Shown here in pieces: positions 59,355 to 64,000 of a DNA stretch of 64,000 nt. Positions within the stretch are counted from its first letter, which is position 1, and every line of letters begins with the position of its first letter. The notes under the pieces were generated by a model. It was not told the origin of the DNA. It searched no databases and worked only from the letters and a program-made list of their open reading frames with translations. The translations under genes were made by a program, and so were the position numbers. Source of the DNA: Polystyrenella longa. Its GTDB lineage: Bacteria > Planctomycetota > Planctomycetia > Planctomycetales > Planctomycetaceae. The DNA is taken from the NCBI RefSeq assembly GCF_007750395.1, contig NZ_CP036281.1, forward strand, positions 4,921,001-4,985,000, in the 5' to 3' direction.

Positions 59355-60746
59355 TTACTCAACGTTCTTGTCAGGCCCTTGCCAGGGAACCTCGCCACCA
59401 CGCTGAATCTGTTTACGAAGTCGCGCTGCGAGATCGCGGAACTGTTGGGGATGCGTTTCTCGCAAATCGGTTGTTTCCTGCGGATCTGTTTTCAGATTAA
59501 ACAGTTCCAGGGGACCGAACGGACTGTTCTGGACGAGCTTCCAATCGTGTAACCGGAGTGCCTCAATCGTTTTGCCTCCGTAAGTGACTCCCCCTTCTCG
59601 ACGAGTGAAGTAGAGTTCGTCTCGCAGTGGAGATTGTTCCTTGCCAAGTATGGTCGGCAGAATACTGATTCCGTCGATCTCTTCGGAACGAGCCTGACCG
59701 TTGAGCTCCAGAGCTGTCGGAAAGAGATCCATCGTCATGGCCACCAGGCCCGATTTCGTACCAGCGGGTATCTTACCCGGCCACCGCGCGATCGCCGGCA
59801 CCTTCAATCCCCCTTCGTACATACTCTGTTTTCCATCTCGCAGCGGGCCATTATTCGCTCCGACATTCAACTGCCCACCGTTGTCCGAGGTGAAGAAAAC
59901 CAACGTCTCTTTGTCCTGTTCTGTTTCATTCAGTGCTTGTAGCACCTGGCCGATCCCGGCATCCATGTGTTCGATTAACGCAACAAGCATTGCCCGTTTC
60001 TCATCGATTCCCGGCTCCCTCTGTTGAACTTTGGCAACCCATTCCGCCGGCGGCTGAATCGGTGTGTGCGGAGCGTTATAAGCAAGGTAGAGGAAGAATG
60101 GTTCGTCCGCCTCTTTCTGATTATTGAGATAGTCGACCGCCCATTCTGAAAAGAGATCAGTGGCATGCCCTTCCGGATCGATGGTTGTTTCGTTCAATCG
60201 CATGTAGTTAATGTCATGCCGTCGGTGAGCGTAGTAATCATCCATCATGTCTCCGAGCCAACCCTGAAAATGATCAAATCCACGGTCGTTCGGTCGACCG
60301 GGTGCAGTCAGCCCCAGGTGCCATTTACCAATGAGAGCGGTTTGATAGCCCTGTCGTTTCAGCTGGTGAGTAATCAACGTCGCGTTCGGATCGAGATAGC
60401 CCCAGCTGTTTTCCGGGTGCGTTCGAATCACTCCGGGAACACCAACACGATCGGGATAACAGCCCGACAGTAACGAGGCTCGCGTTGGCGAACAAACGGG
60501 GCAGTTAGCATAGAACTCAGTAAACCGCATTCCCTCTTCAGACAGTTGGTCGAGTACGGGCGTCCGCATGTCCGTTGCGCCATAACAACTCAGATCGCCA
60601 TACCCCAAGTCATCAGCAACGATCCAGAGAATGTTAGGACGTTGTTGTTCTGCCGCGAAATTTTCGTCCGGCAAAGCAACGAACACTGAGAGAAGCAGAT
60701 AAAGATTGAAAACAATACGGAGCGCGATCGACATCGAGCAGTCCAT
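59355..60746 (-). CDS. Arylsulfatase-type sulfatase
   Basis: This 463-residue exported sulfatase has the metal-binding start NILWIVADDLGYGDL and the formylglycine signature C-x-P-x-R as CSPTRASLLSG, with the modified cysteine at about 85. Further family motifs are ALIGKWHLGL and FFTSDNGG. A signal sequence (IVFNLYLLLSVFVALP) precedes the domain. Sulfatases are expanded in Planctomycetota for use of sulfated marine polysaccharides. A maturase (anaerobic or FGE) is not in the window. The TIM-barrel gene lies 33 bases upstream on the same strand, so the two are probably an operon. The sulfated substrate is unknown. Confidence 0.95.
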   Translation of the reverse strand: MDCSMSIALRIVFNLYLLLSVFVALPDENFAAEQQRPNILWIVADDLGYGDLSCYGATDMRTPVLDQLSEEGMRFTEFYANCPVCSPTRASLLSGCYPDRVGVPGVIRTHPENSWGYLDPNATLITHQLKRQGYQTALIGKWHLGLTAPGRPNDRGFDHFQGWLGDMMDDYYAHRRHDINYMRLNETTIDPEGHATDLFSEWAVDYLNNQKEADEPFFLYLAYNAPHTPIQPPAEWVAKVQQREPGIDEKRAMLVALIEHMDAGIGQVLQALNETEQDKETLVFFTSDNGGQLNVGANNGPLRDGKQSMYEGGLKVPAIARWPGKIPAGTKSGLVAMTMDLFPTALELNGQARSEEIDGISILPTILGKEQSPLRDELYFTRREGGVTYGGKTIEALRLHDWKLVQNSPFGPLELFNLKTDPQETTDLRETHPQQFRDLAARLRKQIQRGGEVPWQGPDKNVE

Positions 60747-60779
60747 TCGTTTTAAGAGATGAGAAGCAATACTGGTTCG

Positions 60780-61757
60780 TTATGCCGAAATGAAATCCGT
60801 CGACAGGAGACCCAACTGCTGATAAGCGGTCAGGAGCGCTCGCTCCCCTGCTTCGCCAGGTATGGACGTTCCATGTTCCAGGCCAAGCAGTCCGTCATAG
60901 CGGTGAGACTTCAGCGCGGCGAACAGGTTCGAGAAGTCAATTTCTCCCGTTCCAGGCTCTTTGCGTCCGTGGCTGTCTCCCAATTCGATGTGACCGATCC
61001 ATGGGGCAGCCTGCCTTAAACCGTTCGCGAAATCATCCAGTTGCAGATGCTGTTGGTAAACATCAAATAACAGACGGCAACGGGGATGATTGACCTGTGC
61101 ACAAAGATTGATCGTCTCTTCCAGCGAACTCAGAAACATAGGGGTGGACATAAGGGCGGAAGCCGTGCAGTGCCGAATCGGTTCCAGGAGCAAGTTCACT
61201 CCGGCGTTTTCACATTCGACAGCAAACTCCTGATAGAATCGAACCGCGTGTTCCAATTGATTTGATTTGTGAACCGTTGCGTCCCTTTTTCCCGGTACGA
61301 CGATGAACGACGAAGCACCACTCCGTTGAGCGACACCCAATGCCTGCCGGTGTCGCCGCCACAATTGCCGTCGTCCCGATTCGTAACTGGTACCGAATAA
61401 AACTGCTGCATATTCCGCCACACCGACAAACGGACCCATTTCCATCGAATGACTCTCCAATTCGCGTCGCAATTCCCATTGAAATCGCGGCGACCTGTTC
61501 ATCAATCCGTTTTCCTGTAGTCCCTGGAAACCATACTCGGCCATAAAATCGAGTTGAGCACGCCAGTCTTCCCCCGCATGTTTATGAAACTGCCCCAGAT
61601 GGGGAGCAAGTCGCAACGAAGATACGTGCTGGCTTGGATCAGCTGCCGACAGAACGGACGTTCCCCAGGTGGCTCCGATCAGCCCGCCAGCGAATGAGGT
61701 TTGCAGGAAGGTGCGGCGTTTGAGTGGCACGGGGCGTTTCCTCCGGTGGGATAGCAC
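60780..61757 (-). CDS. Tat-signalled sugar phosphate isomerase/epimerase (AP endonuclease 2-like TIM barrel)
   Basis: The 325-residue product begins with a twin-arginine segment (KRRTFLQTSFAGGLIGATWG) ending near SVLSA. A xylose isomerase-like TIM barrel follows with the likely metal ligands in NLLLEPIRHC, CRLLFDVYQQHLQ, IGHIELGDSHGRKEPGTGEI and GLLGLEHGT, resembling hydroxypyruvate isomerases. Most such enzymes are cytoplasmic; an exported form is common in planctomycetes. Its product may act with the sulfatase gene directly downstream on the same strand. The substrate is unknown. Confidence 0.88.
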   Translation of the reverse strand: MLSHRRKRPVPLKRRTFLQTSFAGGLIGATWGTSVLSAADPSQHVSSLRLAPHLGQFHKHAGEDWRAQLDFMAEYGFQGLQENGLMNRSPRFQWELRRELESHSMEMGPFVGVAEYAAVLFGTSYESGRRQLWRRHRQALGVAQRSGASSFIVVPGKRDATVHKSNQLEHAVRFYQEFAVECENAGVNLLLEPIRHCTASALMSTPMFLSSLEETINLCAQVNHPRCRLLFDVYQQHLQLDDFANGLRQAAPWIGHIELGDSHGRKEPGTGEIDFSNLFAALKSHRYDGLLGLEHGTSIPGEAGERALLTAYQQLGLLSTDFISA

Positions 61758-62080: not shown

Positions 62081-64000
62081 ATGTCTGTATTATTTCGAAT
62101 CGTCTATGCATCCAAGTGCAATGGGACTCATCATAAGCTGGCGATGGATGCGCTCCGTTATCTGGATTTGCCCGAGAGTGAGCAGTGGACCCGACTGTTT
62201 CTCAAACACGCGGACAGCTACATCGAAGGCTCCAAAGCCCCCGATAAACGGTTTCGTGATTTTCGGAATCATGTCCTGCATGTGGAAGACAACTTCTGGG
62301 GTGGCGCCGTAAAAACGGCCAGCCGCTGGTACGATCAAACCGTTGAAGCCATTCAACAAGAGAATTGGAAAGAAGCGGTCTATTCCGCCGGCGTACTCAG
62401 CCATTACTACACCGACCCCATCATGCCTTTTCACACCGCTCAAAGCGAAGAAGAGACGCAGATGCATCGTGCGGTCGAATGGTCTCTCTCCAAATCTTAC
62501 GACGATCTGTTCGCCCTGTTTGAAGCTGAATATCAATCCGAGATTATACGCCCTCGTTCTCACGCGCAGAGAAATGAATTGGTACAAGACCTCGTTTTAC
62601 AAGGCGCGACCCAGTCCAATCGCCACTACCAAAACACGATCGACCATTACAATCTTGATTACGGTGTGCAGGATCCCCCCGCAGGACTGGATGCAGTCTT
62701 ACGAGAGACCTACGCCAAGCTCCTCGGTTACGCCGCGATTGGTTTCGCCCGTATTCTGGAAGAACTGTTCCGCGATGCGGCAGTGAAACCACCGGCAGTC
62801 TCGTTGACATTGGAGTCGGTCTTTAGCGGACTGGAAATCCCCATTCGCTGGGTCACTCGGAAAGTCGCCGACCGGGAAGAACGATTGAAGATTGAAGCTC
62901 TCTACCAGGAATTCGTGCAAACGGGCCGGGTACAGAAACATCTTCCTGAAGATGATCGTCTGGTTCGCCAATGGCATGCCGAAGAAGTTCGCGGAGTCAG
63001 TCTTTCGCAACTCAACCAGGTCGCTCTGGAGCCAATGGGAACAGCACACGGACAGGGTGGGGATTCCGAAAAAACAAACTTCCTGCATCGTGTGCCTCGC
63101 GATTTACGAACAGCCTACGAGCTAAGTCGTGGCAATCGCCCCGGCGTGGTCACCACGATCGAAGTTGTCGGCCCCAAACCTGTATATGACAATCAAACAT
63201 CAGTATCCCCTCGACCGACATTTGACCGGCGCCCGGCGACTCCAGTGGCGACTCCATCTGTGAGCACGCCGTCGATCACACCGACTCCCAAGATCGTCGC
63301 TTCCAGCAAACCCAAGATACGCGTTAAATCGGAACAGCGACCCGAACGGCAGCCAATAGTGTCGACTCCCGAGACAGTCGTTCCTCCCGTTCACACTCAA
63401 ACACAAAAACCGGTCGAAGAAAAATGGATCCCCCGACGGCCAGTTGAGCCGAGACCCGTTGAACTGAATCGAAATGATTCGCGACCGGTAGAATCGAAAC
63501 CCGAACAAACACGTCCCGTCGCATCACGTCTAGAGGTCCCCCAACCATGGATCCAGGAACCTGTCAAACAGGAGCCCGTGAAGCAACAGCATGCAGTCGA
63601 GACGCGTGTAGAGCAAGAACCATTGCCGTTGGATCCTCAAACGGGCATTCCCTCGCGGCCATCTCGCAACCAACAGGAAAGCAAACGCAACACTCCGCAG
63701 ACGATGCCGATTCGCGAGGAACGCTTGAAGTACTATCTTCATCGCAGTGACAACCTTGTCGATGCGCCGTCGATTGGCCCGAAGACAGCGAAGCGGTTTC
63801 AGAAAATGAAGATCAAAACCGTCGATGACTTCCTGAACTGTGATCCGGAGGCTGTTGCCGAACGAATGCAGGTGCGGCACATCACCGCGGATGAAATTCG
63901 TAAATGGCAGGATCAGGCTGAGTTCGTCTGCCGCATTCCCAACTTGCGTGGGCACGACGCCCAAATCCTCGTTGGTTCCGGAATCCACAAGGTCGAGCAT
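62081..64000 (+). CDS. Zinc-phospholipase-C-like domain, proline-rich linker and DUF4332-like HhH region; 3' end outside the window
   Basis: I translated 640 codons from ATG 62081 to the window edge without a stop, so the gene continues beyond it. Residues 1 to about 215 resemble the zinc-dependent phospholipase C family: CNGTHHKLAMDALRYL near the start and GVLSHYYTDPIMPFHTAQ (about 107-124) followed by MHRAVEW, which provide the spaced His/Asp/Glu ligands of that fold. About 365-525 is a proline/valine/threonine/glutamate-rich linker (SVSTPSITPTPK, EEKWIPRRPVEPRPVE), predicted disordered. From about 545 a DUF4332-like helix-hairpin-helix begins (APSIGPKTAKRFQKMKIKTV). No signal peptide is seen. 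The domain pairing is unusual; the function is unknown. Alternatives include a metal-dependent hydrolase other than a phospholipase. Confidence 0.85.
   Translation, partial: MSVLFRIVYASKCNGTHHKLAMDALRYLDLPESEQWTRLFLKHADSYIEGSKAPDKRFRDFRNHVLHVEDNFWGGAVKTASRWYDQTVEAIQQENWKEAVYSAGVLSHYYTDPIMPFHTAQSEEETQMHRAVEWSLSKSYDDLFALFEAEYQSEIIRPRSHAQRNELVQDLVLQGATQSNRHYQNTIDHYNLDYGVQDPPAGLDAVLRETYAKLLGYAAIGFARILEELFRDAAVKPPAVSLTLESVFSGLEIPIRWVTRKVADREERLKIEALYQEFVQTGRVQKHLPEDDRLVRQWHAEEVRGVSLSQLNQVALEPMGTAHGQGGDSEKTNFLHRVPRDLRTAYELSRGNRPGVVTTIEVVGPKPVYDNQTSVSPRPTFDRRPATPVATPSVSTPSITPTPKIVASSKPKIRVKSEQRPERQPIVSTPETVVPPVHTQTQKPVEEKWIPRRPVEPRPVELNRNDSRPVESKPEQTRPVASRLEVPQPWIQEPVKQEPVKQQHAVETRVEQEPLPLDPQTGIPSRPSRNQQESKRNTPQTMPIREERLKYYLHRSDNLVDAPSIGPKTAKRFQKMKIKTVDDFLNCDPEAVAERMQVRHITADEIRKWQDQAEFVCRIPNLRGHDAQILVGSGIHKVEH

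Follow-up and report, generated by a model that had tools for sequence, protein, structure and literature searches.

The last gene of a 64,000-nt stretch of the Polystyrenella longa genome (hereafter, the window) encodes a member of an unnamed, conserved bacterial family, in which a zinc phosphodiesterase-type domain is joined by a floppy linker to a helix-hairpin-helix (HhH) module. The most unexpected feature of the family is the Ala-Ala end of its proteins. As a tentative model, held with somewhat less than even confidence, we propose a cytoplasmic zinc phosphodiesterase that would be docked by its DUF4332 module, act on the chromosome, and be limited in amount by ClpXP. A published description of this protein was not found in the literature searched, which covered few subscription papers, and no NCBIfam model scored over its cut-off for the window part of the protein or for three further family members.

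Gene and domain architecture

The host genome is a single contig of 6.1 Mb, and the window spans its positions 4921001-4985000. As stated by a sequence-only reading of the window, a large frame lacks a stop within it: the frame is opened by an ATG at position 62081 (+ strand) and runs through the last position, 64000. The downstream sequence, obtained from the host genome, completes the protein at 693 aa, with the stop 162 bases past the window edge (would-be position 64162). The gene is divided into the following features:

62081..64000, + strand: open reading frame, aa 1-640 of 693 within the window
62081..62797, + strand: zinc hydrolase core, aa 1-239 (PF00882 at aa 16-139; PLC/S1-P1 structural match at aa 9-239)
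62129..62479, + strand: conserved presumed metal-site residues H17, H18, D55, H64, H67, H108, D112, H118, H129, and E133, invariant in 49/49 rows of alignment A2
62798..63019, + strand: aa 240-313, helical extension specific to the family and C-terminal to the PLC core (AlphaFold2 helices to residue 313; the core match ends at 239)
63020..63736, + strand: linker, predicted to be disordered, aa 314-552, strongly proline-rich from aa 366
63737..64000, + strand: DUF4332/(HhH)2 module, of which the window holds aa 553-640; the domain continues to aa 681 and the protein to aa 693
genome positions 4985001-4985162, beyond the window: remaining 53 residues and the stop

The product of this gene is the sole PF00882 protein and the sole PF14229 protein found in the host genome. 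Its upstream neighbors (window positions 59355-61757, minus strand) are a sulfatase-like and a TIM-barrel-like ORF, both named by eye, and the downstream neighbors are an ECF-sigma-like and a Ser/Thr-kinase-like ORF. A conserved operon was rejected, as no constant neighbor was observed among the 21 genome stretches and 80 loci clustered; local synteny is limited to subsets, with one neighbor cluster (DUF4159/VWA-type genes by eye) present in 15 of the 80 loci. Carriage as phage or plasmid cargo was also rejected, with no relative in the viral contigs, plasmids, or phages searched. The same holds for SOS control, a LexA-type box being found in 0/46 alphaproteobacterial and 0/32 planctomycete upstream regions (four motifs, of which the planctomycete one is uncertain), and for anti-phage defence, since neither the window protein (L002) nor L117 had a PADLOC match at E 0.01.

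The zinc-hydrolase-like N-terminus noticed in the sequence-only reading corresponds to Zn_dep_PLPC (PF00882) at aa 16-139, with 34.6 bits against a Pfam cut-off of 26.8. Among seven zinc-family proteins compared with this profile, the window protein, L003, L005, L012, and L018 are above the cut-off, L016 is below it (23.8), and L022 has no match. The ten His, Asp, and Glu positions listed above are kept in all 49 rows of alignment A2 (48 of the 80 kept loci and the window protein) and in 19/21 rows of alignment A1. These residues are putative zinc ligands, mapped by motif spacing and by alignment with a solved PLC, and the domain looks catalytically intact as predicted from its sequence. Two relatives depart from the pattern while keeping the DUF4332 module: H129 and E133 are lost in L021 (G003), and most presumed ligands are gone in L022/L181 (G022).

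The AlphaFold2 model of the zinc domain (pLDDT 92.9) was matched by Foldseek to phospholipases C (PLCs) first and then to S1 nuclease (prob 1.00). In VIA-align, most PLCs score Z 20-21 (one of them 18.1 in its closed form), the S1/P1 nucleases (S1 5fba, P1 1ak0, and SmNuc1 8qjl) 14.7-16.5, and all remaining folds compared <4, where non-matches to other families carry no exclusion weight. With Bacillus cereus PC-PLC (1ah7) the domain shares a common fold over 214 residues (Z 20.9, 3.4 A), at ~15% identity. The H-x3-D-x5-H stretch was aligned with the Listeria PLC (E 1e-4), and no nuclease appeared in the same profile search; this motif, the HxxxE near the end of the metal site, and the presumed metal-site residues occur in both the window protein and zinc-dependent PLCs. 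S1/P1 nucleases also carry an H-x3-D-x5-H type motif, with HxxxD where the window protein has HxxxE. In S1 nuclease, Lys68 lies near Asp65 (PMC5201275); the family likewise has basic residues close to a metal-site Asp, K52 and K/R59 (49/49 rows of A2 each) flanking D55, and K52 or K/R59, the latter set against Lys68 here, is perhaps comparable to it. The HET-C domain, described in PMC3482391 from polymorphic-toxin and related systems, is predicted there to have the same fold and active site as Zn-PLC and S1/P1.

The window protein differs from PC-PLC in having no signal peptide (judged by reading the sequence) and no mature N-terminal Trp, and in adding the helical extension after residue 239, the linker, and the HhH module. 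It also differs from S1 nuclease, whose cleaved N-terminal Trp serves as a zinc ligand (PMC5201275): both the Trp ligand and the secretion signal are absent. Instead, the start Met1 is conserved in 46/49 rows of A2, with no equivalent of the N-terminal Trp, and an N-terminal helix is modeled at aa 3-12; no membrane helix or lipid-binding domain was seen in the window protein. Because both signal peptide and N-terminal Trp are missing, we infer from sequence that the family protein is cytoplasmic and its third metal site altered. Five of the seven distant planctomycete relatives noted below as weak matches were inspected and, by reading, four of them (L176, L177, L178, and L180) have a signal peptide followed by ...A-W, the fifth having a signal peptide plus His.

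The linker was described earlier as a proline-rich segment of about 160 residues; its proline richness stands, and its length was underestimated, since aa 366-553 hold 34 prolines in 188 residues and the whole inter-domain region is ~240 residues long. Its composition suggests disorder. It is basic, with a pI of 9.8 (aa 301-552 of the window protein) and a family median of 10.0 (78 proteins).

The DUF4332-type HhH assignment of the C-terminal region likewise held. PF14229, a family of unknown function, matches aa 563-681 near-completely (profile positions 1-116 of 122) with 59.3 bits against a cut-off of 23.2, and the window part of the protein scores 42.4 bits on its own. Since the window holds only part of the module, a same-genus relative (L084) was modeled; the AlphaFold2 model (pLDDT 95.4, falling to 75 in the last residues) is of an (HhH)2-type domain. 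Its structural matches are weak: VIA-align Z is best for the NusA acidic-repeat region (6.9), followed by the RadA/Rad51C N-terminal domains (~5-6.5) and the HhH of Y-family polymerases (~5), and the top Foldseek matches are DNA polymerase iota and RadA (E ~0.8-1.0). The module is acidic, with a median pI of 5.4 (78 proteins). HhH modules are able to dock proteins as well as DNA, and given this acidity and the weak matches, which include the NusA acidic repeats, the DUF4332 module may dock a protein instead of DNA. The only mention of DUF4332 found in the literature searched is in a figure legend of PMC9769723.

The same C-terminal module of ~150 aa was identified on a Rad50/YhaN-like ATPase, in place of the zinc hydrolase, in 9 of 59 genomes (G006, G007, G013, G016, G017, G028, G029, G030, and G054; three by Pfam and the others by alignment), and ATPases on sufficiently complete contigs carry it in two copies. 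By analogy, this association is the best hint of a DNA-maintenance role for the module. A zinc-domain relative was not found in seven of these nine genomes. A functional pairing of the zinc protein with the ATPase was rejected, as their co-occurrence is no more than chance (21 genomes with the zinc domain and 9 with DUF4332 on a different protein out of 59, 2 with both; Fisher p 0.47). In several genomes the ATPase (L047, L048, L049, L050, L182-L188) adjoins a protein resembling a degenerate YhaO/Mre11 by eye, and 0/6 adjacent proteins tested had a Pfam metallophosphoesterase match. One DUF4332 ATPase compared with PADLOC gave hits to many AAA-ATPase models, most of which fall within its first 50 residues.

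Distribution and evolution of the family

The sequence-only reading called the protein chimeric, a misleading label for an architecture that is constant across a family spanning two phyla. A scan of GTDB contigs with the zinc domain yielded 277 relatives, the best 80 of which were kept and read: 78 of these 80 have both domains in a complete ORF, and the other two run off contig ends. The best 80 belong to Planctomycetota and Alphaproteobacteria (Hyphomicrobium, Hyphomonas, Rhodomicrobium, Devosia, and Caulobacterales), including cultured Hyphomicrobium strains; three relatives titled 'bacterium' (two) or 'Proteobacteria' (one) were sorted by resemblance. Of the 59 genomes searched, the window's own included, 28 match the window protein. 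An even draw of Planctomycetota genomes gave 37/393 matches, seven of them weak matches to distant proteins, and an alphaproteobacterial draw gave 2/289, one of which is the centre genome itself.

In a tree of 93 zinc domains, the alphaproteobacterial rows form two clades inside planctomycete diversity, and the starred branches force two changes. The tree is a quick LG+G4 reconstruction with long-branch warnings, no bootstrap, and no inferred root, and it left out six near-duplicate rows, one further A1 row, and the A1 rows L006 and L008. We read this topology as suggesting two transfers to Alphaproteobacteria. Many of the alphaproteobacterial hosts bud or carry stalks (Hyphomicrobium, Rhodomicrobium, Hyphomonas, and Caulobacterales); the family is not required for budding, because most of the planctomycetes sampled lack it. 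One family copy (L175 in G388) is broken by stops and frame changes; in G403, of the same genus, the zinc-domain frame is intact.

The C-terminal Ala-Ala

The window protein ends in RTLRAA, outside the window. A terminal Ala-Ala was observed in 63/78 complete family proteins (Val-Ala in three more) and in 19/21 members of a partly overlapping set, against 2/195 neighboring non-family genes; this background is made up of neighboring ORFs of at least 150 aa that have a homolog at another locus and do not belong to the family. For the Ala-Ala tail the Fisher p is 1e-44, a value that ignores relatedness, the tree needing only 6 changes of the Ala-Ala state. Ala-Ala stays last even though the tail after a conserved Trp spans 11 to 24 residues (75/78 proteins anchored), and the four family proteins whose tail is 9 residues long lack a terminal Ala-Ala. 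Among short relatives without DUF4332, L171 (...QRAA) and L172 (...PVAA) keep it, and L173 ends in ...RIA. The DUF4332 ATPases share this trait, their module match extending to a terminal Ala-Ala in 6/9, with two ending exactly in RSLRAA; the others read RAAS or KAG at the C-terminus or are truncated by the contig edge.

In Caulobacter, many ClpXP substrates are described as marked by a C-terminal Ala-Ala motif, and an AA-to-DD change or a masking tag stabilizes CdnL (PMC5324124). Family proteins resemble this degron class in their Ala-Ala ends, and, by this analogy, the end is probably a tag for protein destruction, with turnover of the family protein by ClpXP. The ssrA tags end in Ala-Ala in 4/4 alphaproteobacterial hosts checked and in 11/12 other planctomycete genomes, the twelfth (G006) reading ANNQFAMVA. 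The tmRNA of the host itself (contig positions 2869618-2869984; L164) encodes the tag ANNKQFAMAC, with a Cys end instead of Ala-Ala, so the ClpX rules of the host may differ.

A rather unlikely alternative is that the DUF4332 domain just happens to finish, as a structure, with Ala-Ala, which would then be no degradation signal. It would account for the Ala-Ala on six of the nine ATPases that share the module and for the few changes of state among related rows. A structural end fits poorly, however, with a dipeptide that remains terminal across tails of such different length, with its presence on two short proteins that have no DUF4332, and with the fall of AlphaFold confidence to 75 in the last residues.

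Proposed function and its alternatives

In the mechanism that we favor, a zinc-dependent phosphodiesterase of the PLC/S1-P1 nuclease fold would act in the cytoplasm, tethered by its long basic flexible linker to the acidic HhH module (DUF4332), which would dock the enzyme at its site of action. The likeliest site would be the chromosome, because related genomes carry the same module on a Rad50/YhaN-like ATPase, and the enzyme would serve there in repair or in the processing of nucleic acid ends; ClpXP, recognizing the conserved Ala-Ala C-terminus, would limit the protein amount. Nucleic acid is thus our best guess for the likeliest substrate. Against this model stand a fold closer to PLC (Z 21) than to S1/P1 (Z 16), the HxxxE form of the last motif, the acidity and weak structural matches of the module, the absence of LexA-type boxes, conserved operon partners, and above-chance co-occurrence with the ATPase in the sets examined, and the Cys end of the host tmRNA tag. 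The fullest version of this reading is improbable in all its particulars: a chromosome-maintenance enzyme, namely a cytoplasmic PLC-fold nuclease without the Trp ligand, docked by the module shared with Rad50/YhaN, cleared by ClpXP, of Planctomycetota origin, and handed twice to budding or stalked Alphaproteobacteria. The tethering of a hydrolase to an HhH region had seemed hard to explain by known families. The observation itself was confirmed and its interpretation is partly supported, the difficulty being softened by DUF4332 on the Rad50/YhaN-like ATPase, by S1/P1 nucleases within the PLC fold, and by the ability of HhH modules to dock proteins as well as DNA.

The same closeness to PLCs (the Listeria match and no nuclease, Z 20.9 vs 16.5, and HxxxE), together with an acidic module whose best single structure match is the NusA acidic-repeat region, would suit a true intracellular phospholipase C acting on the head groups of phospholipids at the inner face of the membrane, with DUF4332 as merely a protein-docking joint. 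We regard this as unlikely, although a serious contender: neither a signal peptide nor a membrane helix nor a domain for lipid binding was seen, the module on the ATPase has no obvious lipid meaning, and ~15% identity to PLCs says little about substrate. Distinctly less probable is a hydrolase of small phosphodiesters or nucleotides (e.g., cyclic dinucleotides) docked by DUF4332 to a signaling or transcription complex. SmNuc1 belongs to the nuclease branch of the fold, one of its PDB entries (9emg) is by its title a c-di-GMP cleavage product, and the (HhH)2 module is acidic and NusA-like; the neighborhoods examined, however, hold no constant neighbor, nucleotide signaling included. Finally, a catalytically idle zinc domain with a scaffold role, for which L022 (most presumed ligands missing) and L021 (H129 and E133 missing) might speak, is very improbable given ten positions kept in 19/21 (A1) and 49/49 (A2) rows.

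Enzymes of the PLC and S1/P1 type are best known as secreted proteins, with a zinc site that uses the cleaved N-terminus. The family described here points to a cytoplasmic branch of this fold that differs at the N-terminus and carries both a targeting module and, in all likelihood, its own degradation tag. Should nucleic acid prove to be its substrate, it would be a DNA- or RNA-processing enzyme that has gone unrecognized, giving DUF4332 a role and a link to a Rad50-like ATPase. The range of hosts suggests that the family has spread between two lineages in which budding growth is well known. An ordinary-looking pair of domains thus represents a conserved unnamed family of the PLC/S1-P1 kind, predicted to be cytoplasmic and probably controlled by proteolysis.
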